A stretch of 64,000 bases of DNA from Sulfurihydrogenibium subterraneum DSM 15120 (GCF_000619805.1 NZ_JHUV01000008.1:124001-188000), one strand, 5' to 3'. Positions 1 through 11,620 are shown, numbered from the stretch's first letter. Numbers and translations are program-made. The notes: generated by a model from the sequence alone, not told the origin.

Positions 1-429
1 CATGAGTGTTTCTTGATATTCTATGGAGAGATAATCTAATATTAGCTCATCAACTGTAGGAGCAGAAGATCTTATAAGAGCTTCTGTATTTCCATCACAG
101 TCTTGAATGTTTATCCATATAACAGGGACTCTATTCATAACTTCTGCAGCTTGAGCAACCAACGGCTCAAAAGACGGTGGGAGCATTAAAGTTGCGGTCA
201 TCATTGAAACCCATTTAAAAAAGTCTCTCCTTGAAATATCCCACATTGAAAGGTATTCATCAAACTTTATATCATCTTCTCTAACAGGCTTTTGTGATTT
301 AAGCCAGTTTAACCTCTCTTCTGCCTTTTTGTAAAGTTGATCGTAATACTCTTTCCCTTTATTCGTATCTATAAGGTTTGTTGGTTTTATAAACATCTCT
401 CTTAAAAAATCTCTTCTAAAAAATTCCAT
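1..429 (-). CDS. [NiFe]-hydrogenase small subunit with Tat signal (3' part outside window)
   Basis: Partial gene: 143 codons are readable from ATG at 429 down to position 1, where it is cut by the window edge. The start follows a clear GGAGG. A twin-arginine motif SRRDFFKW (residues 66-73) is followed by a hydrophobic stretch and an AQA-type cleavage region near 92-95, so the mature protein should be exported to the periplasm. The mature part opens PVIWINIQDCDGNTEALIRS, the usual start of small subunits that carry the Fe-S relay from the Ni-Fe site. The Tat motif is preceded by 65 residues, which is long. The first cluster motif is C-D-G-N, so the second Cys of the usual CxxC is Asn. The large subunit should lie just outside. 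Probably a group 1 respiratory uptake hydrogenase; subgroup not certain. Confidence 0.88.
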   Translation of the reverse strand, partial: MEFFRRDFLREMFIKPTNLIDTNKGKEYYDQLYKKAEERLNWLKSQKPVREDDIKFDEYLSMWDISRRDFFKWVSMMTATLMLPPSFEPLVAQAAEVMNRVPVIWINIQDCDGNTEALIRSSAPTVDELILDYLSIEYQETLM

Positions 430-530: not shown

Positions 531-582
531 CCTGAATAGTTATTCATTCATATAATGATAAAAGCAAAAAATTTTTTGTCAA
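531..582 (-). promoter_or_regulatory. Promoter and palindromic operator of the exported hydrogenase
   Basis: On the minus strand TTGACA (577-582), 16 bp, TATCAT (555-560) forms a near-consensus sigma70-type promoter. Six bases downstream lies AATGAATAACTATTCAGG (548-531), with GAAT/ATTC arms. The same core, GAATAA-N2-ATTCA, recurs at 3321-3338 and 11588-11605. Its position at the transcription start suits a repressor. Which protein binds it is inferred, not seen. Confidence 0.72.
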
Positions 583-600
583 CGTAAATGTTTACTAACC

Positions 601-945
601 TTAGACTTCCAATTCTATACTTTTTAAAATCATATCCGTTCCGTCTATAACATCTATATTAAAACTTTGGCAAAATTGACAGACAAAGTTGTAATCTTCA
701 ATGGTAAAATCCTGATTACAGTCATTACATCTACAAATTACACTTTGAATTTCAATGACAAACTCTGCATTTTCTGCTATAGTTTTTTCTTTAAAAGTAT
801 TGAAAGCCACCTCTAAAAGATGTGGCTCTACTCCGGACATTTTTCCTATTTTCACTACTACTTTTGAAACAGATTTTGCATTATTTTTTCTAGCGTTTTC
901 TTCTATAAGGTCTAACAAACTTTGCACTATTGAAAACTCATGCAT
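601..945 (-). CDS. hypA: HypA, hydrogenase nickel metallochaperone
   Basis: HypA hands nickel to the hydrogenase large subunit, working with HypB. The protein of 114 residues starts MHEFSI, the conserved N-terminus in which His2 is a nickel ligand. I therefore chose ATG at 945 instead of an in-frame upstream start at 1005 that lies inside hypE. Two CxxC pairs in the C-terminal half (CNDC and CQFC) form the structural zinc site. The start lies one base after the hypE stop, so the gene is translationally linked to hypE as the last gene of hypCDEA. The length is usual for the family. Confidence 0.93.
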   Translation of the reverse strand: MHEFSIVQSLLDLIEENARKNNAKSVSKVVVKIGKMSGVEPHLLEVAFNTFKEKTIAENAEFVIEIQSVICRCNDCNQDFTIEDYNFVCQFCQSFNIDVIDGTDMILKSIELEV

Positions 946-946
946 C

Positions 947-1945
947 TTAACATATCCTCGGAAGTATCTCACCAGCTGGTGGCTCCATAATTCTTGAAGA
1001 TCCATAAGAAGCTTTCAGTATAACTCTTTTCTTCCCTTTGGATTTTACTTTTCCTATAAGTTGCGCATCTTTTCCAAGGGGGTTTTTCCTTAATGTTTCT
1101 AAAGTTTTTTCCGTATCTTCTTTTGATACTGCTAATACTATCCTACCTTCGTTTGCTAAAATATACGGTTCTAAACCTAGCAGTTCACATAATCCTTGAA
1201 CCTGTGGTTTAACAGGTATTTTCTCTTCCAAGACTTCTATTTCCACACTTGAACTTTCAGCCCATTCATTTAAAACAGCAGACAATCCGCCTCTGGTAGG
1301 GTCTCTCATAGCCTTTATTTTTACGTTTACTTTTATTAAGTCTTCTACTAAACTCCATACGGAAGCACAGTCTGAAGTCAGGTCTGTCTGCAAATCTATA
1401 CCTTCTCTTTGAGCCATAATACAAGCTCCGTGATCTCCAACAGTTCCCGATACAATTATAATATCTTCTTCTGATAAATTATGAGCAGATATTCCTTCGT
1501 AAACTACTTTCCCTAATCCAGATGTATTTATAAAAATTTTATCAACAAAACCTTTTGGAACTACTTTTGTGTCCCCTGTCACAATTAAAGCACCTGTTTT
1601 TTTCAGCTCTTCTGCCATAGATTTTACTATCCTTTCTAAATCTTCAAAAGGAAAACCTTCTTCTATAATAAAACTACAGCTTAAATACAATGGTTTTGCT
1701 CCCATTACAGAAAGATCGTTTACAGTTCCAGCCACTGCTAACTTTCCAATATCTCCACCATTGAAAAATATTGGAGATATGGTAAAAGAATCTGTTGTAA
1801 ATGCAATTTTTGAATTTATGTTTAAAATGGCAGAATCTTCCATACTTGAAAGAATCTCATTGTTAAAATATTTAAAAAAAAGTTCTTTTATCAATTTTTG
1901 AGTTTCTTCTCCGCCTCCACCGTGAGCAAGCATAATTTGTTTCAT
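947..1945 (-). CDS. hypE: HypE, carbamoyl dehydratase in CN ligand synthesis
   Basis: HypE takes the carbamoyl group from HypF onto its C-terminal Cys and dehydrates it to a thiocyanate, the source of the cyanide ligands of the Ni-Fe centre. The protein (332 aa) has the family's glycine-rich N-terminus AHGGGGEETQ, the PurM-like ATP-binding fold motifs (FTTDSF, GDTKVVP, DPTRGG) and ends in PRIC, the conserved terminal cysteine. The ATG overlaps the hypD stop by four bases and the stop lies one base before hypA. No hypF is present in the window, so the carbamoyltransferase must be encoded elsewhere. Confidence 0.95.
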   Translation of the reverse strand: MKQIMLAHGGGGEETQKLIKELFFKYFNNEILSSMEDSAILNINSKIAFTTDSFTISPIFFNGGDIGKLAVAGTVNDLSVMGAKPLYLSCSFIIEEGFPFEDLERIVKSMAEELKKTGALIVTGDTKVVPKGFVDKIFINTSGLGKVVYEGISAHNLSEEDIIIVSGTVGDHGACIMAQREGIDLQTDLTSDCASVWSLVEDLIKVNVKIKAMRDPTRGGLSAVLNEWAESSSVEIEVLEEKIPVKPQVQGLCELLGLEPYILANEGRIVLAVSKEDTEKTLETLRKNPLGKDAQLIGKVKSKGKKRVILKASYGSSRIMEPPAGEILPRIC

Positions 1946-3060
1946 TGTTTAAAAACCTCCGGATTTCCATACTTATAGTAAGCCGCGCAGGCACCTTCTG
2001 ATGATACCATACACGAACCTAAAGGATTTTCAGGTGTACAAGCTTTTCCAAAAACTTTACACTCATAGGGCTTTGCAATACCTTTAAGAATATCTCCACA
2101 TATACACAGTTTATGGTCATCTACTGGTTTATTTGGAAGAATATCTTTAAATACAACTTCAGCATCTAAGAAAGAAAATTTATCTTTAATTTTTAAAGCT
2201 GAAAATGGAATATCTCCTAAACCTCTCCACCGGAACGTATCTCTAATTTCAAAATACTTTTCTATTAACTTTTGAGCTTTTATATTTCCTTCCCAGTTAA
2301 CAGCTCGTGTGTATTGTATTTCAACCTCTCTTTTGTTTTCTTTAAACTGTCTAATTATTTTCAAAACACTTTCCATAATATCAACTGGTTCAAATCCAGC
2401 TACAACTATAGGTGTTTTGTAAGAATCAACTATTTCTTTGTATATTTTGGCTCCGGTAATAACCGAAACGTGAGAAGGTCCTATAAATGCATCTATCCTT
2501 GCTTCTTTACTTTCCATAATTGCTTTTATAGGAGGAGGCACTAAAACGTGATTTACATGAAAAAAAACGTTTTTTATTTTATTCTCTAAAACTTTTTCCA
2601 TCACAGATGCAGTCATAGGAGTAGTTGTTTCAAAGCCTATTGCAAAGTATATAACATTTTTATCAGGGTTCTCCTGTGCTATCTTTAAAACATCAAATGG
2701 AGAGTAAACCATTTTTACGTTCTTCCCCTTTGACCTCTCCTTTGCAAGAGAACTCTCAGAACCCGGAACTCTTATCATATCTCCAAGTGTAACGAGAATA
2801 TTCTTTTCATTTTGACATAAAGCTATCCCGTGGTCTATCCTTTCTTTTGGCATTACACAGACGGGACATCCTGGACCATGGATAAATTCTATCTCTTTCG
2901 GAAGAATTTGCTTTAAACCATACTTCATAATAGTGTGTGTATGGCCACCGCAAACTTCCATTATATTAATAGGTCTATCTATTTCTTTCTCTATTAGTTT
3001 AGAAATTGCAATAATCTTTTTTCCATCTCTAAAATCTTTTAAAAAATCTACTTTTCCCAT
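1942..3060 (-). CDS. hypD: HypD, Fe-(CN)2CO cofactor scaffold
   Basis: HypD together with HypC holds the iron while the CN and CO ligands are added. In 372 residues it shows the expected motifs: CGGHTH near residue 37, GPGCPVC near 63, the GFETT segment, and a C-terminal cysteine set (CICGDILKG, KACTPENPLGSCMVS, EGAC) that binds the 4Fe-4S cluster. The start lies two bases after the hypC stop and the end overlaps hypE by four bases, so the two should be co-translated. Length and motifs are complete; nothing is missing. Confidence 0.96.
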   Translation of the reverse strand: MGKVDFLKDFRDGKKIIAISKLIEKEIDRPINIMEVCGGHTHTIMKYGLKQILPKEIEFIHGPGCPVCVMPKERIDHGIALCQNEKNILVTLGDMIRVPGSESSLAKERSKGKNVKMVYSPFDVLKIAQENPDKNVIYFAIGFETTTPMTASVMEKVLENKIKNVFFHVNHVLVPPPIKAIMESKEARIDAFIGPSHVSVITGAKIYKEIVDSYKTPIVVAGFEPVDIMESVLKIIRQFKENKREVEIQYTRAVNWEGNIKAQKLIEKYFEIRDTFRWRGLGDIPFSALKIKDKFSFLDAEVVFKDILPNKPVDDHKLCICGDILKGIAKPYECKVFGKACTPENPLGSCMVSSEGACAAYYKYGNPEVFKQ

Positions 3061-3062
3061 TG

Positions 3063-3308
3063 TTAACTTAATTCTCCTTCTTCTTCCAAATGTTTTACAA
3101 TTTCTTCATATATCTTTAAACTTTCCAAAGCATCTTCCTCGTTCATTTTAGTTATAGCGTACCCAACATGAATAAGAACATAATCTCCGACGTTAACAGA
3201 TTCTGGAAGGAGATGGAGAGAAACTTTTCTTTTTACACCCATTGTATCTACTATCGCTGTTTCGTCTGGAAAAATTTCCTCTACTCTTGATGGAATTGAT
3301 AAACACAT
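3063..3308 (-). CDS. hypC: HypC/HupF-family hydrogenase maturation chaperone
   Basis: Small chaperone (81 aa) that binds HypD and then the large subunit precursor through its N-terminal Cys2. The family needs Met-Cys at the N-terminus; here ATG at 3308 gives MCLSIPSRV. An in-frame ATG two codons upstream (3314) would bury the cysteine and stands too close to the GAGG, whereas 3308 has a seven-base spacing. It is the first gene of hypCDEA and sits directly below the promoter-operator at 3321-3371. Confidence 0.93.
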   Translation of the reverse strand: MCLSIPSRVEEIFPDETAIVDTMGVKRKVSLHLLPESVNVGDYVLIHVGYAITKMNEEDALESLKIYEEIVKHLEEEGELS

Positions 3309-3320
3309 TTTCATACCTCA

Positions 3321-3371
3321 AATGAATGATTATTCATTAATTATATTAATTAAATTTTTAAAAATTGTCAA
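3321..3371 (-). promoter_or_regulatory. Promoter and palindromic operator of hypCDEA
   Basis: Minus strand: TTGACA (3366-3371), 17 bp, TAATAT (3343-3348), then after four bases the palindrome AATGAATAATCATTCATT (3338-3321), with perfect 7-bp arms AATGAAT/ATTCATT around four bases. It is the most symmetrical of three copies of this element in the island. The hypC start is only 13 bases further on, so a bound protein would block initiation. Confidence 0.78.
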
Positions 3372-3372
3372 C

Positions 3373-4725
3373 CTAATGGGTTAAACATACCGAACAAACA
3401 TCAAAACTTCTTAAAACCATCTGTGCTTTCAAAGGATCTTCTAAACCTACAATTGCTTTTTCGGCCGGAGATTTAAATTTATTACATCTTGATCCTAAGT
3501 TCCACATTGTTGGCGTAATTATGCTGTAGCTTTTTATAACCCCTTTTTCTACTTTTACTTTATGTATCAAAGAACCTCTCGATGCTTCCACATAACCAAA
3601 AGCTTCACCGTAAAGTTTTTTGTAATCATTTGGTTTAATGTAAGATTTTTCATTTACATTTATCTTTAAAAGCCAATCTTTCATGTTTATTAGTATTCTC
3701 AAAATTTCATCAACTCTTGCCCATACTCTAACTAAATAGCTATCTTTATAGGTACGATAAAGATTAAAAAATAATTCTATTTCCGATGTTAACCTTCTTG
3801 CCAAAGGTCCAGTTTGCATAGGTAATCCATCGTACCTAACACCGTTTGCATAAGTATATCCTGTTTCTTTATTATGCAAAATATTAAAATCTTTAACCTC
3901 TTTTATCTTTTTTAGATTAAGTTTACATTTTTTCTTTTTTATAACACCTTTATTTATACAAGGATACACAGTTGACACTGTAATAAAATGTTCATAAGAT
4001 TGTCCTTCTTTATCAAGACCAGATTTTATACAAAAATCTATAAATGTAGTTAAATCTCCACCTTTTGATTTTGATAAAAATTCTTCTAAGTTTTTAACGT
4101 TTAAATAATCTTCATAACTCATTCCAAAAATCTCTTCTTCTGTATACTTAATTAGCCTATCTACTATAGATAAAGCATCTACTATATCGGTTTTTAAAGG
4201 CTCGCTTGTTACGCCACCAGGAATAGCATAGGATGTATGAGGCCATTGTCCTCCAAAAATAGCAATGATTTTTACTATTTCAGAAGAATACTTTACAGCC
4301 TTTTTCCATTTTTCCCCTACAAAAGGTTTGAATTTTTCATTTTCCAAAGAAGGAAATAACTTTAAGAAATCAGGCATAACAAAAAGATAAAACCATTTCA
4401 GATGATTTTGAACAATTTCACTACAGAGGGTTATTTGTCTTATAAGCTTTGCTTTTTCAGTAATCTCTACATCTATTGAATTATTTTTGTAAAGGTTTTC
4501 TATAGCGTTTACAGTTGCCATAAGATGAGCATGACCACAGATACCACATATTCTTGGATTTATAACCAAAGCATCTAACAAATCCCTTCCTTGTAAAATA
4601 TGCTCAAAACCTCTATAGTTGTAAGCAACAATGTAAGCATCAGATATTCTTCCATTTTGATCCCAGCAAAGTTTAAGGTTAACATCACCTTCAACTCTAT
4701 TTAAAACAATTTTTTGAACTCTCAT
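3373..4725 (-). CDS. Group 2-like cytosolic [NiFe]-hydrogenase large subunit, no C-terminal propeptide
   Basis: Carries the Ni-Fe active site. The N-terminal ligand motif is RICGICGHAH (about residues 58-67) and the C-terminal one is SFDVCSVCLTH, where the final His is the last residue before the stop. Most catalytic large subunits continue 10-30 residues beyond this His and are cleaved by an endopeptidase; H2-sensing HoxC/HupV proteins end at the His as here. The usual DPC is DVC. The protein has 450 residues and starts one base after its small subunit. Either an H2 sensor (group 2b-like) or the soluble Aquificota-type enzyme (group 2d, proposed to feed reductive CO2 fixation) is possible; the adjacent TetR gene makes sensing worth testing. 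Confidence 0.85.
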   Translation of the reverse strand: MRVQKIVLNRVEGDVNLKLCWDQNGRISDAYIVAYNYRGFEHILQGRDLLDALVINPRICGICGHAHLMATVNAIENLYKNNSIDVEITEKAKLIRQITLCSEIVQNHLKWFYLFVMPDFLKLFPSLENEKFKPFVGEKWKKAVKYSSEIVKIIAIFGGQWPHTSYAIPGGVTSEPLKTDIVDALSIVDRLIKYTEEEIFGMSYEDYLNVKNLEEFLSKSKGGDLTTFIDFCIKSGLDKEGQSYEHFITVSTVYPCINKGVIKKKKCKLNLKKIKEVKDFNILHNKETGYTYANGVRYDGLPMQTGPLARRLTSEIELFFNLYRTYKDSYLVRVWARVDEILRILINMKDWLLKINVNEKSYIKPNDYKKLYGEAFGYVEASRGSLIHKVKVEKGVIKSYSIITPTMWNLGSRCNKFKSPAEKAIVGLEDPLKAQMVLRSFDVCSVCLTH

Positions 4726-4726
4726 A

Positions 4727-5665
4727 TTAATCAGTATCTTCCAACTTTTTATTTAATCTTTGATTTGTAAATGTTTTTGCTACACCTGTTAGCATTATAT
4801 AAGCTCTTTTTGTTACACCCAGTGGAACTTCTTCAGGAATCCCTATGTTAGTTTTCGTCTCAAAGTACTTTGATCTTAGAGGAAAATCAAACTCTGTGCA
4901 ACCGATACACGGCATACCACTTCTTGTTTTTGAAGACTTTTCATTCCAAAGTATTTTATTGCATGGAGAGTGTGTTAAAGGTCCCCTACATCCTAACTCG
5001 TAAAATAAACATCCTTCTTTAGTTCCAAACTCATGAGCCTCAACTTTCCATTCAAAATACTCATTTCTAATGCATCCATCATGGGCTAAGTACATGTAAA
5101 AATCTTTAGGTCTGTTAAAATTATCAAGATTAATATCGTATCCAAAATCGAGACTTAAAATAGTTCTTACTATCCATTCAGGGTGAGCCGGACAACCTGT
5201 TATATTTATAATTTGGTATCCAGATTTTGTTTTAAAACTCTCCCCTAAAAAACCTCCTTTATCTTTAAATCTGTACTGTAAACCATTTACGTTTTCGTTA
5301 TACAAAGCAGGAAAATTTCCATAACAGGCACAGTTTCCAACTGCCAAAATGTAATCTGACTTATCTTTTAAATTATTTAAAATCTCAAATACATCAAACC
5401 CTTGGAAAAACACTTCATTCTTTTTATTGCTGACTGCACCTTCAACTACTAAAAAATTCAAACTCTCTTTTCCGGAAAGTATTCGTTTATATACATCTTT
5501 AAACTCTATTTCCGAAGTAAGTATAGGGTGGTAAAGAATGTTAATATTACTTAAAAATGTATCTAACAATGTATCGTTTATAGACAAAAAAGAATGTGAG
5601 TTTCCATTGCAAGTTAGACCTTGTATCCATACAAGATTTTTCAATCCTTTTTTAATGCTCTCCAA
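4727..5665 (-). CDS. Group 2-like [NiFe]-hydrogenase small subunit, cytosolic
   Basis: Fe-S relay subunit of 312 aa without any Tat signal, so it should stay in the cytoplasm. Cluster motifs are LTCNGNSHSF (about residues 17-26), GNCACYG, TGCPAHPEW, HDGC, EGCLFYELGCRGP, SPCNK and GMPCIGCTEF. The first motif lacks the second Cys (Asn instead) while GNCACYG offers one extra Cys. The start codon is TTG at 5665, chosen because AGGAG lies 7 bases upstream; it overlaps the end of tetR by 25 bases, implying translational coupling between regulator and hydrogenase. Confidence 0.87.
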   Translation of the reverse strand: MESIKKGLKNLVWIQGLTCNGNSHSFLSINDTLLDTFLSNINILYHPILTSEIEFKDVYKRILSGKESLNFLVVEGAVSNKKNEVFFQGFDVFEILNNLKDKSDYILAVGNCACYGNFPALYNENVNGLQYRFKDKGGFLGESFKTKSGYQIINITGCPAHPEWIVRTILSLDFGYDINLDNFNRPKDFYMYLAHDGCIRNEYFEWKVEAHEFGTKEGCLFYELGCRGPLTHSPCNKILWNEKSSKTRSGMPCIGCTEFDFPLRSKYFETKTNIGIPEEVPLGVTKRAYIMLTGVAKTFTNQRLNKKLEDTD

Positions 5666-6240
5666 ATGTTTTCTCCTATATCTTCTGCATACTCTATAGG
5701 TCTTTTAGGTAGTACATTCTCTCCTTTTAAAAATACAATACCACCCAAGGGTCCCATCACAGTAACAAATGCAGGGAAAAAATCCTGCTGTCTTAAATCT
5801 CCTTTCTTTGCACCTTCTTCCAAAAACAACATCAATTCAGTTACAACACTACTCACACATAAAAATCCTTCACATCCTTCCTTAAAAACTTCCCTGTTTG
5901 AGAGAAAAACTCTTAAAAAGTAATCAATAAGCTCTGGCTTTTCTTCTGCTATCTCTATAAACCTTCTTACTAAAAGTAATATTTTTTCTCGTGTAGATAT
6001 ATCCATTTCAGAAATCTTTCTTATCTCTTCACCTAAAATATTGGAAGAGTATTGCATTATATACTTTGCAAGCTCTTCTTTAGATTCAAAGTAGTTGTAG
6101 AAGTTTCCAACGCTCATTCCCAAAGCTTCAGCTATATCAGGAATAGTAGTGTTGTAAAAGCCTTTTTCTGCAAACAACTTTAAAGCAACATTTACAATTT
6201 CTTCTTTCTTTTTCTCCTTTAAACGTTTTCTAATCAACAT
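5641..6240 (-). CDS. TetR/AcrR-family transcriptional regulator
   Basis: A 199-residue one-component regulator. The N-terminal helix-turn-helix is clear (TIPDIAEALGMSVGNFYNYF, about residues 27-46, then ESKEEL). The C-terminal half is a helical ligand domain with two Cys close together near residue 125 (EGCEGFLC). It starts directly after the hypB stop (TAGATG) and its end overlaps the hydrogenase small subunit, so it is expressed with the nickel importer and this hydrogenase. The three 18-bp palindromes at 531, 3321 and 11588 have the size and symmetry of TetR sites, making it the best candidate repressor. The ligand is unknown. Confidence 0.9.
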   Translation of the reverse strand: MLIRKRLKEKKKEEIVNVALKLFAEKGFYNTTIPDIAEALGMSVGNFYNYFESKEELAKYIMQYSSNILGEEIRKISEMDISTREKILLLVRRFIEIAEEKPELIDYFLRVFLSNREVFKEGCEGFLCVSSVVTELMLFLEEGAKKGDLRQQDFFPAFVTVMGPLGGIVFLKGENVLPKRPIEYAEDIGENIWRALKKD

Positions 6241-6990
6241 CTACTCCATCATTTCTTTTTTAAACTTTATATATTTTATCCATTTATCCATTCCTTCTCC
6301 ACTTTTTGAAGATACTATCAGAATGTCTGCTTTTGGATTCAATCGCCTTACCTCTCTTTTTACATTTTCAACATTAAAATCAAAGTAAGGTATTAAATCA
6401 GATTTTGTTATTAAGACGATATCGGCAGATCTAAACATAACAGGATATTTTGCAGGTTTATCATCTCCTTCCGGAACGGAGAGTAAAACTACGTTTACAT
6501 GAGTTCCTATATCGTAAGATGCAGGACATACAAGATTTCCTACGTTTTCAACAAACACTATGTCTAAATCCTGTAAAGGTAAATGATGAATGCCTTCGTG
6601 AACCATAAAAGCATCTAAATGGCAAGCTTGACCGGTTGTAATTTGATAAGTTGGAACTCCTTTTGCCTTTATTCTTTCTGCATCTTTATTTGTTTCTAAA
6701 TCTCCTTCTATAACTCCTATTCTGTACTCATCTTTTAAAAGATCTATCGTTTTTTCAAGTAAAGTTGTTTTACCAGAACCCGGAGAGCTCATAAGGTTAA
6801 AAGATAAAATTCCATACTCTTGAAAATGTTCTCTATTGCTTTGAGCCTGTTTATCGTTGGCATCGAGTATCTTTGTCAAAACCTCTACAGTCTTTTTATC
6901 CTCTGTAATATGATTAGTATGAACATGATGATGGTGATGACCTTCCTGATGTTCATGTGTAGTTATAGAGCATCCACAGTCTTTACACAT
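6241..6990 (-). CDS. hypB: HypB, hydrogenase nickel-incorporation GTPase
   Basis: GTPase that drives nickel delivery with HypA. In 249 residues it has the high-affinity N-terminal nickel motif CKDCGC (2-7), a His-rich stretch (about 12-27) able to store nickel, Walker A GSGKTT (71-76), the QACHLDAF metal site (C123, H124), VENVGNLVCP (147-156) and TKSDL for guanine recognition. GGAGG precedes the ATG. HypB is separated from hypCDEA and co-transcribed with nikR and the nickel importer instead, which ties metal supply to its insertion. Confidence 0.95.
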   Translation of the reverse strand: MCKDCGCSITTHEHQEGHHHHHVHTNHITEDKKTVEVLTKILDANDKQAQSNREHFQEYGILSFNLMSSPGSGKTTLLEKTIDLLKDEYRIGVIEGDLETNKDAERIKAKGVPTYQITTGQACHLDAFMVHEGIHHLPLQDLDIVFVENVGNLVCPASYDIGTHVNVVLLSVPEGDDKPAKYPVMFRSADIVLITKSDLIPYFDFNVENVKREVRRLNPKADILIVSSKSGEGMDKWIKYIKFKKEMME

Positions 6991-7006: not shown

Positions 7007-7423
7007 TTACAGTTTAATATTAGCTGTTTTTGTTAACTTTGCAAATTTAACTCCATTTAATCCAGATATACTGTTTACCACGTTTAAAATCTCATCTGCT
7101 TTTCCTTTTATAATTATCACTTCTAAACAGTTATGATGGTCTAAGTGAATATGTGTAGAACATAAAATATTTATATAATGGTTATGTTGTATATCTATCA
7201 TCTTTTGAGATAATTCTCTTTTATGATGATCGTAAATAATTGTAAGGACACCTATTACCTCTTCTTTTGGTTTATTCCAGCTTTCTTCTACAGCAAACTC
7301 TCTAATCATATCTCTGATAAATTCTGATCTTGAAGAGTATTTATTTTTAATAACTAAATCGTCTAAAAAATCTGCAAGGTCTTTTGGTATTGAAATAGAT
7401 ATTCTTACCAGCTCCTTTTCCAT
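7007..7423 (-). CDS. nikR: NikR, nickel-responsive regulator
   Basis: Ribbon-helix-helix repressor with an ACT-like nickel-sensing domain, 138 aa. The N-terminal strand [10 protein letters not shown] and helix [14 protein letters not shown] match the family. The high-affinity nickel ligands of E. coli NikR (H76, H87, H89, C95) have counterparts at H80, H91, H93 and C99 with the same spacing. It sits between the nickel ATPase gene and hypB. Known NikR sites have half-sites separated by 11-16 bases, unlike the compact palindromes found in this island, so its target is not clear from the sequence. Confidence 0.93.
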
Positions 7424-7435
7424 AAAAAAACCTCC

Positions 7436-8209
7436 TCAATCCCAGTCGTGAATATGATAGTGTGTATGGATAATATTGTTATGTCTGTGTTTGTGAATAT
7501 GTACCAGATTTGCTTTAATAAGCAAATTTTTATCCTTTAAAAATGTTTCAACTTTACCATCGTATAAAATTTTATGATTTTCTCCCAATACAATAGTTCT
7601 TTCTGCTAATTCTCCAGCGATACTGAGATTATGGGTTGTTACTATCATAGTAAGGTTCAAATCGTTTAAAAAGTCTATAAACCAGCCTGTTGTCTTAGGA
7701 TCAAGGTTTGAAGTAGGCTCATCAAGGAGTAAAACTTCTGGTTCTATGGCTAAGATAGATGCGAGACAAACTTTCTGTTTTTCACCACCACTTAGGTCAA
7801 TAGGGGATTTATCAAGATATTTAGTAATACCAAAAATATCAGCCCAGTATTTAACTCTGTCATCTATATCACTAAAATCAAATTGCCTAAGACCAAAAGC
7901 AATCTCATCATAAACTGTTGGGTTAAACAGCATAACATCAGGATTTTGAAAAAGCATAACAACCTCTTTTCTAAACTTTTTGTTAAAAGATTTATTTTTT
8001 AATTTGTTTTCATCTAACTTTTCTCCTTTGTAAAGATAGATACCTTTCTGTGGAAAGATAAGTCCGTTTAAAATTTTTAATAAGCTTGATTTTCCTACTC
8101 CATTTATTCCCAGTAAAACTACTTTTTCTTTTTCATTAACAGAAAATGTTATATCACTTAAAATAACGTCTGTTTCACTTCTATATGTTATCCTCTTTAA
8201 CTCAATCAT
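7436..8209 (-). CDS. nikO: NikO, ATPase of ECF-type nickel importer
   Basis: ATP-binding subunit energising the NikKMLQO transporter at the inner membrane. Walker A GINGVGKSS (34-42), Q-loop FQNPDVMLFNPT, signature LSGGEKQK (139-146), Walker B VLLLDEP and switch His in TTHNLS. The last 20 residues are rich in His (about nine of them, LVHIHKHRHNN and HTHYHIHDWD), a tail suited to binding nickel and unlike cobalt or general CbiO proteins. The start overlaps the nikQ stop by eight bases. Confidence 0.9.
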   Translation of the reverse strand: MIELKRITYRSETDVILSDITFSVNEKEKVVLLGINGVGKSSLLKILNGLIFPQKGIYLYKGEKLDENKLKNKSFNKKFRKEVVMLFQNPDVMLFNPTVYDEIAFGLRQFDFSDIDDRVKYWADIFGITKYLDKSPIDLSGGEKQKVCLASILAIEPEVLLLDEPTSNLDPKTTGWFIDFLNDLNLTMIVTTHNLSIAGELAERTIVLGENHKILYDGKVETFLKDKNLLIKANLVHIHKHRHNNIIHTHYHIHDWD

Positions 8210-8753
8210 TAAAAAATCCTCTTGATTTCATTGCCTGAGATATTTCTTTATTAGATTTTAAAGATTTATCAAAGAAAAACAAAGTCAAGTATCCGTATAA
8301 TTTTAAATAATTATCAAATGATAAATTTTTAACAGTTCGACTTTTTATAACCATCTTAAATTCCTTAAAAAGTTTTTTATAATTTAGTATTTGACTGTAA
8401 GTCAATATTAAAACATAACCTAAATCCTTTGAAAAGGAAAATACTTTAAATAAGTTTAACTTGGAAAATGTATAAATCGTAAGATAAGTAAGTGCAAAGA
8501 CTCTAAGATTTATAACTGTTAGGTAATCTGCATTAATGTTGTTTCTAAAAAATCCGACTGTAAAATAAAGAATAGATACAGACCCTGTAAAAAGTATAGT
8601 AGAAACAATAACTTTTTTTGTTATTTTTAAAGCATCTTTAAAACTAATAGCTATCAAAAATAAGATAGTGGATACAAGCAAAACTTTATTAGAAATTGAA
8701 GATATAAAAATCATAGTGATTACATACACCAAAAAAAGCAGTTTTTCATACAT
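8202..8753 (-). CDS. nikQ: NikQ, transmembrane coupling subunit of nickel importer
   Basis: EcfT/CbiQ-type membrane protein joining NikO to NikM. It has 183 residues from ATG at 8753 (preceded by AGGA at seven bases); a TTG two codons upstream has no better site. Four to five hydrophobic segments are visible, and a charged cytoplasmic part contains the KSRTVKN and AMKSRGFF segments that match the two short ATPase-contact helices (A-R-G type motif) of the family. It is shorter than most CbiQ proteins (about 230-260). Overlaps nikM and nikO. Confidence 0.8.
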   Translation of the reverse strand: MYEKLLFLVYVITMIFISSISNKVLLVSTILFLIAISFKDALKITKKVIVSTILFTGSVSILYFTVGFFRNNINADYLTVINLRVFALTYLTIYTFSKLNLFKVFSFSKDLGYVLILTYSQILNYKKLFKEFKMVIKSRTVKNLSFDNYLKLYGYLTLFFFDKSLKSNKEISQAMKSRGFFND

Positions 8754-9393
8754 TAACAAGTCCTTTTGATTTTAAAATTTTATAGACTGAAGCTGTATAT
8801 AACCCTTCAACTATACCCGCCAAAAAGTGAGGTATCAACAAAGCTGGAATTGTAACATTCCAAGAGAAAGGGAAATAAAGAGGATTTCCACTGTTATCGT
8901 GAGCTATTAACGGAATAAGCCCAAGGACAAGAGCAACTATCAGAGCAGATAAATTTATAGAAACCCAACCAGATATAAAACAAGAAATCTCTTCCTTTAA
9001 GAAGTTTTTCAAAAACTTAAAAATTAAGTATGCGCTAAGACTTCCAAAAAAGGATATAGATAGACTATTTACAGGGAAAGAGGTAATCCCTCCTTCCCCA
9101 AATAAAACAGCTTGCAAAAACAAAATCAAAGATGTTGAAAAAAAACTAATCCAGTATCCAAAAACTATCGAAAGTATAGCAACTCCTGTAATGTGAACAG
9201 AAGTTCCTCCAAATACAGGAAACGATATAGACATAAGAATGAAAGATAGGGCAGATAAAACAGATAAGGTTGGAAGAGTATCTTCATTAAGATTTTGTTT
9301 GATCTTTTTAAACCCGTAAACTAAAAGTCCTAAATCTACTATATAAGCTGGAACGTAAACTATAGGAGGAATAAAACCATCTGGTATATGCAT
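8746..9393 (-). CDS. nikM: NikM, substrate-specific component of nickel importer
   Basis: CbiM/NikM-type membrane subunit that binds nickel. The protein begins MHIPDGFIPP: in this family the N-terminal amine and His2 are metal ligands, so I chose ATG at 9393 (AAGGAG six bases upstream) over a GTG one codon earlier. About six to seven membrane segments follow in 215 residues, with a HITG segment and HFLAGIVEG near the end. The typical fused NikN domain is absent; NikL, encoded separately upstream, replaces it. Confidence 0.9.
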   Translation of the reverse strand: MHIPDGFIPPIVYVPAYIVDLGLLVYGFKKIKQNLNEDTLPTLSVLSALSFILMSISFPVFGGTSVHITGVAILSIVFGYWISFFSTSLILFLQAVLFGEGGITSFPVNSLSISFFGSLSAYLIFKFLKNFLKEEISCFISGWVSINLSALIVALVLGLIPLIAHDNSGNPLYFPFSWNVTIPALLIPHFLAGIVEGLYTASVYKILKSKGLVNV

Positions 9394-9403
9394 CACTGAC
9401 TCC

Positions 9404-10441
9404 TTAAAAAAGTGCGGAGAATGTTATTATTAATCTGTACTTTTCCTTCCCTTCTCCTCCTTGTTGGGTACTTTCTTCGTTTAAACGTTTCCATACAGGT
9501 AGCTTAACCCCTATTCCTAAACTCGTGCTTTTATAATATAATCTTCCGCCTAAAACGCCGTAAAGTATCTTTCCTCCAGAACCTTCAGCTTTTATCCCAT
9601 CTTCTTTATCTCTTTGATTGTATTGATACGTCGCCTCTAAGGAAGTATCTAATCTTAACTTCTTTTCGGGAACAGTTAAAACTCTATAGGTTAAAGCCGT
9701 ATTAAATCTAAATTCGTCTCCGTATTTATACCTTTTATTACTTCCATCTAAATTTTTGTAATTGTAAGTTTTTTCAAAAAATTTTATATAATTTGTGTCA
9801 AAAAGGATTGTAAATCTGGGATTACTCACAAGCTGTTTTGTAGCAGTTTGACCTATCATTATGTAGGGTTTTCCAAAACCTGTAGCCATATCCGCTTCAA
9901 AATCGTTTCTAACTTTATCTACTGTAGACCCATTGTAATCTCCCGTAGGGATTGAAAAACCAAAGTAAGTTGTAAAATGCCAATCCATCATATCGTCAAG
10001 ACTTTCTTTTTTAGGAACGAGTTTAAAACCTTTGTCATACTTATAGCCTAACACAGCCATAAAAGATATATCAGCAAAACCAGAAGAAGTAAAGTTATAC
10101 TGCCCTCCCGACGGATTTTCTTTTATCTCTTTCTTTGTGTAATAAGGAATGAACATATAAGCAGATAGATACGGCTTTATACCATAACCAATTCCATAAG
10201 TCCAAAAGTAATACTCATCTTTTTGATCAGGAAATTCAGACCAACTGTATTTTTTCCATTTTACATAATCAAGTTTCCCGTAAAACAACCAACTTCCTTC
10301 TGGTAGAGTTGCACTACTTGAGGTCTCTAAGGGAGCTCCCGGACCTTCTAAACCTGCTGCTCCTAAAGATGCAACTCCGTGATGTGCAAATGCAGAAATA
10401 GGAATCAGAGAAAAAATTCCTACTAAAACTTTTTTCGTCAT
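9404..10441 (-). CDS. Outer membrane beta-barrel protein of the nickel operon
   Basis: A 345-residue protein with signal peptide (MTKKVLVGIF to AFA) and a mature start HHGVASLGAAGLEGPGAP, then alternating amphipathic strands and a terminal Phe typical of outer membrane barrels. ATG at 10441 was chosen because GGAGG lies eight bases upstream; an in-frame ATG six codons earlier would contain that site. It overlaps nikL by four bases and precedes nikM, so it is embedded in the importer operon. Inference: a porin giving nickel passage across the outer membrane. I cannot name the family; it resembles generic 'transporter' barrels annotated near metal genes. Confidence 0.72.
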   Translation of the reverse strand: MTKKVLVGIFSLIPISAFAHHGVASLGAAGLEGPGAPLETSSSATLPEGSWLFYGKLDYVKWKKYSWSEFPDQKDEYYFWTYGIGYGIKPYLSAYMFIPYYTKKEIKENPSGGQYNFTSSGFADISFMAVLGYKYDKGFKLVPKKESLDDMMDWHFTTYFGFSIPTGDYNGSTVDKVRNDFEADMATGFGKPYIMIGQTATKQLVSNPRFTILFDTNYIKFFEKTYNYKNLDGSNKRYKYGDEFRFNTALTYRVLTVPEKKLRLDTSLEATYQYNQRDKEDGIKAEGSGGKILYGVLGGRLYYKSTSLGIGVKLPVWKRLNEESTQQGGEGKEKYRLIITFSALF

Positions 10442-10866
10442 CTTACACTCCTCCCACATTTAAAAATTGATATAAAACCAAATATTCCCAAAATTAGTCC
10501 AATTCCTACAAATACTTTTTCATATCTTTTAAACACACCCTCATCTAAGGACACATAACCTGCTTTTTCTACTGATACTTTTACAGTAGAGCCGTGTCCA
10601 TCTTCTGAAAAAATTTTGACTGACCAATTACCTTCTTTATCCGGAACAAAAACAACTCTTCCAAGAGCATCTGTCCTTCCTACTTGAAAAGGGATCTTTT
10701 CACCATCTCTATAAATTTCAAAGTTTTCATAAGAAAATTTTGTTCCATCTGGAAAGTAGAATGAAATCACTACAGTATCATCAACTTTTTTAACAGAATG
10801 CTGTAAATCGTGAGCAAAGACAGATACTGTCAGAAAAAGTAATAAAGAGAGGATAAGATTGAGCAT
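10438..10866 (-). CDS. nikL: NikL-like accessory protein of nickel importer
   Basis: 142 residues: signal peptide (MLNLILSLLL to VFA), a mature start HDLQHSVKK, a small beta-domain with GRTDALGRVVF that looks like a carboxypeptidase-regulatory or Ig-like fold, and one C-terminal membrane helix (about 118-136). This layout matches NikL of NikKMLQO-type nickel importers, in which NikL substitutes for NikN. ATG at 10866 follows GAGG by nine bases; an upstream TTG is rejected because it spoils the signal peptide. It overlaps the barrel gene by four bases. Confidence 0.75.
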   Translation of the reverse strand: MLNLILSLLLFLTVSVFAHDLQHSVKKVDDTVVISFYFPDGTKFSYENFEIYRDGEKIPFQVGRTDALGRVVFVPDKEGNWSVKIFSEDGHGSTVKVSVEKAGYVSLDEGVFKRYEKVFVGIGLILGIFGFISIFKCGRSVR

Positions 10867-10867
10867 T

Positions 10868-11545
10868 TTACTTAACCTCAAAGTTCAAAGTTGAAGTATA
10901 AATTGTAAAATCAGCTTTTTCTGATTCTTCTTTTAACTTTAAAGATGTTGAAATGTTTTGAATGCCACCGTGTTTTATTCTAATATTTATTTTACCTTCT
11001 TCTTCGGTTGTTCCTATAGGTTTTTCATCGTAAGCAACAACAGTATCTCTAACGGGCTTTCCGTTTAAAGTAACCAAAAATGTAATTTTATCACCGATTT
11101 TTACGTTTTTTATATTATTTAAAGGAGTAATTTCTAAATTAGCTGTTAAAGGTTTATTTATATCAGAATCCAATCTTTTAACATACTCTACAGACTTCCA
11201 ACTTTCTAAAGGTATTTGTACTTGATTTTTAGGTAAATTTTTTAATCCGTAGGGCGTTTTTGTCCAATATCCTGAAGAAAACCCTACAAAAACAGCATCG
11301 CATTTTCCAAAAATTTTTAAAGGATAAGACTTTTCAACTTTTATACTTTTTTCTTTTCCATCTTGAGAAAAACATTTTACTTCAAAGACAGCATCAGGAT
11401 TGTACTCAATACTTCTTTGTTCATTGTCTAATGGATTTAAATGTCCATAAAAAAGGATGTAGAAATTATCTTTTTTTTCTAACCATAGATCGTGAGAAAA
11501 AGCTATCCCAACTGAAAACAAGAGAGGAATTAATAACTTTTTCAT
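10868..11545 (-). CDS. nikK: NikK-like periplasmic DUF4198 protein
   Basis: First gene of the nickel operon. It encodes 225 residues: signal peptide ending AFS, then HDLWLEK, which resembles the start of DUF4198/NikK proteins (periplasmic, often beginning with His after cleavage), followed by beta-rich segments and a C-terminal carboxypeptidase-regulatory-like part (GKPVRDTVVAYDEKPI). NikK is an accessory of NikKMLQO importers and probably captures nickel in the periplasm. GGAGG lies six bases before the ATG; the promoter-operator is at 11583-11620. Confidence 0.78.
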   Translation of the reverse strand: MKKLLIPLLFSVGIAFSHDLWLEKKDNFYILFYGHLNPLDNEQRSIEYNPDAVFEVKCFSQDGKEKSIKVEKSYPLKIFGKCDAVFVGFSSGYWTKTPYGLKNLPKNQVQIPLESWKSVEYVKRLDSDINKPLTANLEITPLNNIKNVKIGDKITFLVTLNGKPVRDTVVAYDEKPIGTTEEEGKINIRIKHGGIQNISTSLKLKEESEKADFTIYTSTLNFEVK

Positions 11546-11582: not shown

Positions 11583-11620
11583 ATATTAATGAATATTTAT
11601 TCGCTTGTCAATAAGCGAAT
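11583..11620 (-). promoter_or_regulatory. Promoter and double palindrome of the nickel/hydrogenase operon
   Basis: Minus strand: TTGACA (11606-11611), 17 bp, TAATAT (11583-11588). The spacer is filled by AGCGAATAAATATTCATT (11605-11588), the third copy of the island operator. A second inverted repeat overlaps it: arms ATTCGCTT (11599-11606) and AAGCGAAT (11613-11620) around six bases, covering the -35 box. The site therefore offers three half-sites, consistent with tight repression of this promoter. Confidence 0.78.

Follow-up and report, generated by a model that had tools for sequence, protein, structure and literature searches.

A group-2d-type [NiFe] hydrogenase encoded with a TetR-family repressor: a probable H2-sensing module of Aquificota and Campylobacterota

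The window, a 64,000-nucleotide stretch of Sulfurihydrogenibium subterraneum DSM 15120 (G000:C8:124001-188000), belongs to a 1.61-Mb Hydrogenothermaceae-like Aquificota genome and carries, on its minus strand, the genes for the small (SSU) and large (LSU) subunits of a soluble [NiFe] hydrogenase directly downstream of a tetR gene (Table 1). The gene order on that strand is DUF4198, small protein, outer-membrane protein, cbiM, cbiQ, cbiO, nikR, hypB, tetR, SSU, LSU, hypC, hypD, hypE, hypA. After hypA, past the window edge, follow a group-1 hydrogenase exported by the twin-arginine (Tat) route, cytochrome b, the HycI protease, a HypF-like protein and HypF. The soluble hydrogenase is of the group 2d type and is encoded as a unit with TetR, and a shared site lies at the uptake-hydrogenase, nickel and maturation genes, which makes it most likely an H2 sensor.

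The LSU comprises 450 amino acids and ends in SFDVCSVCLTH-stop, that is, at the final His of its C-terminal cysteine motif and without an extension, as the first-pass annotation had pointed out by analogy with HoxC/HupV. The stop falls at the same point in 43/43 Aquificota and 60/62 Campylobacterota relatives, the other two being truncated or broken, and the last residue among these 103 relatives is His (74), Gln (25) or K/R/Y (4). The HycI protease of the cluster comes after the group-1 LSU, whose C-terminus has an extension. The SSU (312 amino acids) starts at a TTG codon at 5665, about 8 nt downstream of an AGGAG ribosome site, and overlaps the 3′-end of tetR by 25 nt. No twin-arginine motif was found in the SSU, while the neighbouring group-1 small subunit has one (SRRDFFK); both the start within tetR and the missing Tat signal had been read correctly at the first pass. 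The active-site cysteines 60, 63, 444 and 447 are invariant in LSU relatives, and the active-site cysteines, gate Glu and canopy Arg are kept in all members that reach those positions (105 sequences). In the L1 motif, the window LSU has His67, and His is found in 102/105 relatives where group 2b sensors have Gln (a 2b feature taken from PMC5665086, its HoxC position being read from the alignment). The gas-channel pair is Ile62/Phe115, and the Phe is kept by most Aquificota. The lack of both a C-terminal extension and a Tat signal, together with this Ile/Phe pair resembling that of regulatory hydrogenases (RH) in Aquificota, gives the enzyme a sensor-like build. Campylobacterota mostly have Thr or Val in place of the Phe, and the RH-like gas channel was dropped as a family-wide sensor mark for that reason. 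Two variants of the gene pair were also seen. Campylobacter-like genomes (L219-L223, L225) contain the tetR-SSU-LSU cassette with a compact LSU of about 387 amino acids (usual length 435-455), its L1/L2 cysteines kept where read, and in some Hydrogenothermaceae (L045, L048) a PIN-domain VapBC-like toxin-antitoxin pair sits between the SSU and LSU genes.

Among solved structures, Huc, the group 2a enzyme of Mycobacterium smegmatis, is closest to both subunits. All three of its clusters are [3Fe-4S] (PMC10017518), and the SSU shares its CxGN proximal motif. In a maximum-likelihood LSU tree with references from annotated plasmids, in which groups 2c and 2e were unrepresented, the Aquificota and Campylobacterota sequences, including that of the window, form one clade (support 100), which is sister to 2a (support 92) and apart from 2b (99). 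The placement that the first-pass annotation had proposed as a check thus sets the LSU in a clade of its own, beside catalytic 2a. A Huc-like catalytic group 2a enzyme was ruled out by this clade, by the missing extension and by the partner genes: Huc-type loci encode a C-terminal extension, a maturation protease and NifU/NHL partners, none of which belongs to the window pair. Records named Aquifex, Hydrogenobacter, Persephonella, Sulfurimonas and Arcobacter belong to the family, these being lineages with published group 2d enzymes; the family is monophyletic with the soluble, extension-free enzymes of Aquificota. Judged by these lineages, the pair fits HydDB group 2d and most probably represents the same family. 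Known members (A. aeolicus hydrogenase III, H. thermophilus Hup2 and Campylobacterota huaSL) come from the same lineages and are likewise soluble and without extension; a TetR partner and operator are described for them in no paper found in the open-access literature. The role of group 2d is given in HydDB as “unresolved; may generate reductant for carbon fixation or have a regulatory role” (PMC5037454), while Hartmann et al. placed 2d alongside 2b among the H2-sensing enzymes that have no extension (PMC7294309). One metagenome-assembled genome labelled Acidobacteria (L161) has an Aquificaceae-like hypB-SSU-LSU-hypE cluster, probably on a misbinned contig.

The best-known H2 sensors are those of group 2b (HoxBC/HupUV, with the kinase HoxJ/HupT and the regulator HoxA/HupR). 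They too are soluble two-subunit [NiFe] hydrogenases without an LSU extension or Tat signal, they control uptake-hydrogenase genes, as is proposed here for the TetR-linked pair, and an Ile/Phe pair like that of their narrow gas channel (Ile62/Phe110) is present in the window and most Aquificota but not in Campylobacterota. However, the window pair was ruled out as a member of group 2b by its separate clade, its L1 His instead of Gln, its proximal CxGN instead of CxxC, and its partner, a one-component TetR repressor in place of a PAS kinase and NtrC activator. In the reference 2b loci, an NtrC gene lies upstream and an ATP-binding protein downstream (L084), or an ATP-binding protein lies upstream (L087, L090). 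Sensing through a histidine kinase and an NtrC-type regulator encoded elsewhere, with TetR repressing the same genes independently, could draw on six strong NtrC-type ATPase matches in the genome. These lie on other contigs, and none is on the hydrogenase contig; as the first-pass annotation had said, no NtrC-type regulator is seen in the locus. As the SSU is also shorter than HoxB (312 versus 347 amino acids), without its longer C-terminal region, and as it is TetR that recurs beside the cassette, where no kinase or NtrC partner was seen recurring, this route is very improbable.

The association with TetR extends over two phyla. In Campylobacterota, tetR lies directly upstream of SSU-LSU in 53 of the 55 loci with room upstream, and an uptake hydrogenase follows within 1.5 kb of the cassette in 48/54. 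Most Hydrogenothermaceae loci with sufficient flanking sequence show the order hypB-tetR-SSU-LSU, and tetR is near the pair in two Aquificaceae. Among listed Aquificota and plasmid loci having both genes and an intact junction, tetR and SSU overlap or are separated by at most 9 nt in 16/17 cases, the exception being L062. On plasmids from Sulfurimonas paralvinellae and Sulfurovum mangrovi, the annotation gives tetR-SSU-LSU and then an uptake hydrogenase. Many Aquificaceae have tetR apart from the sensor, in those inspected mostly among hypD, hypE/hypA, cbi, nikR or uptake-hydrogenase genes (G001 is an exception). Of 298 Campylobacterota genomes searched, 67 have both LSU and TetR, 1 has the LSU only, 2 have TetR only and 228 have neither; the corresponding numbers for 136 Aquificota genomes are 54, 3, 6 and 73. 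The LSU-only genomes are three Aquificota drafts and a Campylobacterota contig that stops at the SSU (G436 L229). Genomes with TetR only comprise a contig end (G101 L135), broken or partial TetR copies (G058, G345, G052, G008), and G030, G032 and G284. In G030, a complete Hydrogenobaculum-like genome, the first SSU residues remain right after an intact tetR (L123:7300-7560), a remnant that is read as a recent loss of the sensor. The TetR-only group was considered as a sign of an independent TetR and set aside, as it consists mostly of contig ends, broken copies and this remnant, with G284 left over. Pairwise TetR distances in Campylobacterota correlate with those of the SSU (r 0.80) and LSU (r 0.83), but with those of the adjacent group-1 genes only at 0.22-0.25. 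Judged from sequence, the TetR-hydrogenase link is real and general; no report of it was found in the open-access literature.

A strict palindrome, TGAATRNNYATTCA (TGAAT-N4-ATTCA), has only three perfect matches in the whole genome (1.61 Mb): before the uptake hydrogenase (533), before hypC (3323), and before a gene for a DUF302-like secreted protein on another contig. With one mismatch allowed, it occurs 19 times versus 36 for the control and is not enriched, so that the information lies in the perfect copies and their positions; a relaxed form with three mismatches gave noise, and the strict form was then run against a control pattern and shuffles. The first-pass annotation had named promoters at 531, 3321 and 11583. 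Each was recovered as a consensus −35/−10 pair with the same palindrome (Table 1), two of the sites lying just after the −10 box and one in the spacer of strong sigma-70-like promoters, which is the usual position for a repressor. The one-mismatch site at 11590 suggests autoregulation of the nickel-hypB-tetR-sensor operon. The first-pass annotation had also held that its sensor proposal would fail on a catalytic clade combined with no effect on these promoters; the LSU has its own clade, and the promoters named carry the putative operator. The DUF302-like gene (L122:4566-5075, G000:C10 at about 141 kb) has an orthologue in G078 (L132) that is likewise preceded by the operator, which suggests an unexpected member of the H2 regulon.

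In Aquificota, the palindrome is found upstream of the uptake hydrogenase (G1S) in 13/17 loci (0.15 expected), of hypB in 15/23 (0.09), of DUF4198 in 4/5 (0.04) and of hypC in 4/11 (0.10), and upstream of almost no other gene. In Aquificota genomes with TetR the copies number 96, against 29 for the reversed control; in those without TetR the figures are 26 and 36. An unbiased search for gapped palindromes in Campylobacterota returned TGAAT-4-ATTCA as the top five-base match between LSU and uptake hydrogenase, where it is present in 38 of 47 intervals and in at most 7 after shuffling. Only 4 of 52 Campylobacterota regions upstream of tetR contain it; sensor and repressor thus appear to be mostly operator-free there, with the uptake hydrogenase as the target. 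The palindrome might instead belong to another regulator, its association with TetR reflecting ancestry and gene clustering. The counts, which were made without phylogeny correction, leave room for this, as do a few TetR-less genomes with copies of the pattern. However, copies exceed the control solely where TetR is present, palindromes of this type are usual in the TetR family, and TetR decay accompanies hydrogenase loss; a foreign regulator is most unlikely. In G053, the operator also precedes a group-2a-type hydrogenase paralogue of Aquificaceae (L075:11888), and the regulon may include this second uptake enzyme.

The TetR protein matches the TetR_N helix-turn-helix (PF00440, 7e-17). Its AlphaFold (AF2) model has a pLDDT of 90 and aligns by Foldseek with TetR structures up to TM 0.8; the loop 114-129 is predicted with low confidence. 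The same loop (NREVF...GCEGxxCV) is among the most conserved parts of the protein, with Cys123 and Cys128 present in every one of 48 aligned orthologues. That it is conserved yet poorly predicted suggests a partner, a metal or a redox state. The fold and helix-turn-helix, and a palindrome as putative operator, are shared with TetR repressors such as FadR and PfmR, from which the window TetR differs by the invariant C-x4-C loop in its effector domain and by the operon shared with a hydrogenase.

Taken together, the group-2d-type hydrogenase and its dedicated TetR repressor probably constitute an H2-sensing module that controls H2 metabolism. The cassette, the predicted regulon and the candidate operator are well supported by the genome comparisons. 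In the absence of H2, a TetR dimer would occupy the TGAAT-N4-ATTCA sites overlapping three promoters, those of the uptake hydrogenase, of the hyp maturation genes and of the nickel-uptake/hypB/tetR/sensor operon, and keep expression from them low. In the presence of H2, the hydrogenase would split it and the SSU would switch TetR to another state, probably through direct contact and possibly through electron transfer to the invariant cysteine pair; TetR would then leave the DNA and the H2-oxidation genes would be expressed. We infer that the hydrogenase is the input and TetR an H2-released repressor, and that the SSU touches or reduces loop 114-129 upon H2 splitting. The signalling from hydrogenase to TetR envisaged at the first pass is supported by the cassette in two phyla, by co-occurrence and co-loss, by correlated divergence and by the shared operator, while the signal transfer itself is presumed. 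A bolder version is tentative: H2-derived electrons might pass straight into the transcription factor, the SSU docking on TetR and reducing Cys123/Cys128 or a metal held there, whereby H2 would act through a metalloenzyme on a one-component repressor, with no kinase, phosphorylation or small ligand involved.

Several observations weigh against an H2-sensing module. The small subunit resembles that of catalytic group 2a (Huc), the RH-like gas-channel Phe is missing from Campylobacterota, and the 2b-sensor Gln is His here. G284 (Campylobacterota) has an intact TetR and operator without a hydrogenase, and the two Hydrogenobaculum-like genomes G030 (with its SSU remnant) and G032 also keep TetR and operator without it; in G030 and G284, TetR has thus outlasted the hydrogenase. 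The Campylobacter-type loci with the compact 387-amino-acid LSU have no perfect operator before the uptake hydrogenase, and the NtrC-type ATPases on other contigs count here as well. Some loci have more than one group-1 hydrogenase, which may depress the group-1 distance correlation, and the co-occurrence and operator counts treat genomes as independent, with shared ancestry uncorrected. The weight of the argument rests on the agreement of two phyla, on unlinked copies and on co-decay.

The soluble group 2d enzyme offered as an alternative in the first-pass annotation is probably right as to its group, the lineages matching; a catalytic role ranks below that of a sensor. In such a case, TetR would regulate the H2 regulon by sensing a small molecule or redox state itself, beside an enzyme reducing ferredoxin or quinone. 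The likeness of the SSU to catalytic Huc, the retention of every active-site residue and the TetR with operator but no hydrogenase in G284 are in its favour, and a catalytic role was proposed by Brugna-Guiral 2003 and Sievert 2008, as cited in PMC4584964 and PMC10052474. Nevertheless, it is unlikely: cassette and co-occurrence are near absolute across two phyla, TetR diverges in step with the hydrogenase but not with its other neighbours, and the Campylobacterota operator, rare before tetR and common before the uptake hydrogenase, fits a constitutive sensor and a regulated target. Published data also fit the sensor reading. In A. butzleri hDNRA1, which has a 2d enzyme and no recognised CO2-fixation pathway, group 1b hydrogenases rose 2- to 6-fold with H2 and group 2d fell, a comparison in which electron donors varied along with H2 and which is hence supportive only (PMC12286921). 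The cytoplasmic group II hydrogenase of Sulfurimonas denitrificans is transcribed, yet no soluble H2 uptake was found (PMC4584964), and hydrogenase III of A. aeolicus proved difficult to find in cell extracts (PMC10052474).

Chemoautotrophs living in hot springs and at deep-sea vents widely possess group 2d hydrogenases, which are also found in Arcobacter and Campylobacter relatives; since 2003, ferredoxin reduction for CO2 fixation, H2 recycling and sensing have been debated as their role. With a TetR partner of its own and a defined operator, the role of the enzyme can be put to a direct test, and the H2 regulon can be predicted for entire lineages. If the sensor assignment is true, H2 would be sensed in a way that differs from the kinase-based 2b system, and the module would offer a compact part for building an H2-responsive promoter.

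Table 1. Features of the hydrogenase-tetR locus, in window coordinates.
Feature	Position	Strand	Evidence or remark
LSU, group-2d-type [NiFe] hydrogenase large subunit, putative H2-sensing	3373..4725	-	PF00374; best PDB relative Huc 7utd; own clade
SSU, small Fe-S subunit, cytosolic, proximal motif CNGN	4727..5665	-	PF01058 + PF14720; best PDB relative Huc small subunit
tetR, TetR-family repressor, loop NREVF...GC-E-G-x-x-CV (Cys123, Cys128)	5641..6240	-	PF00440
Candidate TetR operator TGAATAGTTATTCA	533..546	.	just 3′ of −10 box, group-1 uptake hydrogenase operon
Candidate TetR operator TGAATGATTATTCA	3323..3336	.	just 3′ of −10 box, hypCDEA
Candidate TetR operator TGAATATTTATTCG, 1 mismatch	11590..11603	.	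between −35 and −10, DUF4198-cbiMQO-nikR-hypB-tetR-sensor operon
Group-1 hydrogenase operon promoter	555..582	-	TTGACA-16-TATCAT, 11/12 consensus positions
hypCDEA promoter	3343..3371	-	sigma-70-like −35/−10 match
Nickel/hypB/tetR/sensor operon promoter	11583..11611	-	sigma-70-like −35/−10 match
Group-1 uptake hydrogenase small subunit gene, 5′ part, Tat-exported; operon runs on beyond window	1..429	-	L009:15180-16430
hypC, hypD, hypE, hypA, maturation genes, putative target operon	601..3314	-	
hypB, directly upstream of tetR	6241..6990	-	TIGR00073
nikR, nickel-responsive regulator	7007..7423	-	
cbiO, cbiQ, cbiM, nickel/cobalt uptake	7436..9396	-	CbiM match; gene order conserved
Outer-membrane-type protein, small protein, DUF4198 protein; operon head	9404..11545	-	

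Two further groups of neighbouring genes were noted. The outer-membrane-type and DUF4198 proteins (9404-11545) head the CbiMQO-NikR operon that carries the operator, and possibly provide an outer-membrane route for nickel uptake. Just beyond the window, a 657-amino-acid HypF-like protein (L009:10164-12137, minus strand) adjoins the full HypF; its matches are to acylphosphatase and the HypF zinc finger and, weakly at the C-terminus, to carbamoyltransferase, with none to YrdC. Its relatives adjoin HypF in many uptake-hydrogenase clusters of Aquificota and Campylobacterota, and the copy on the S. paralvinellae plasmid is annotated as hypothetical.

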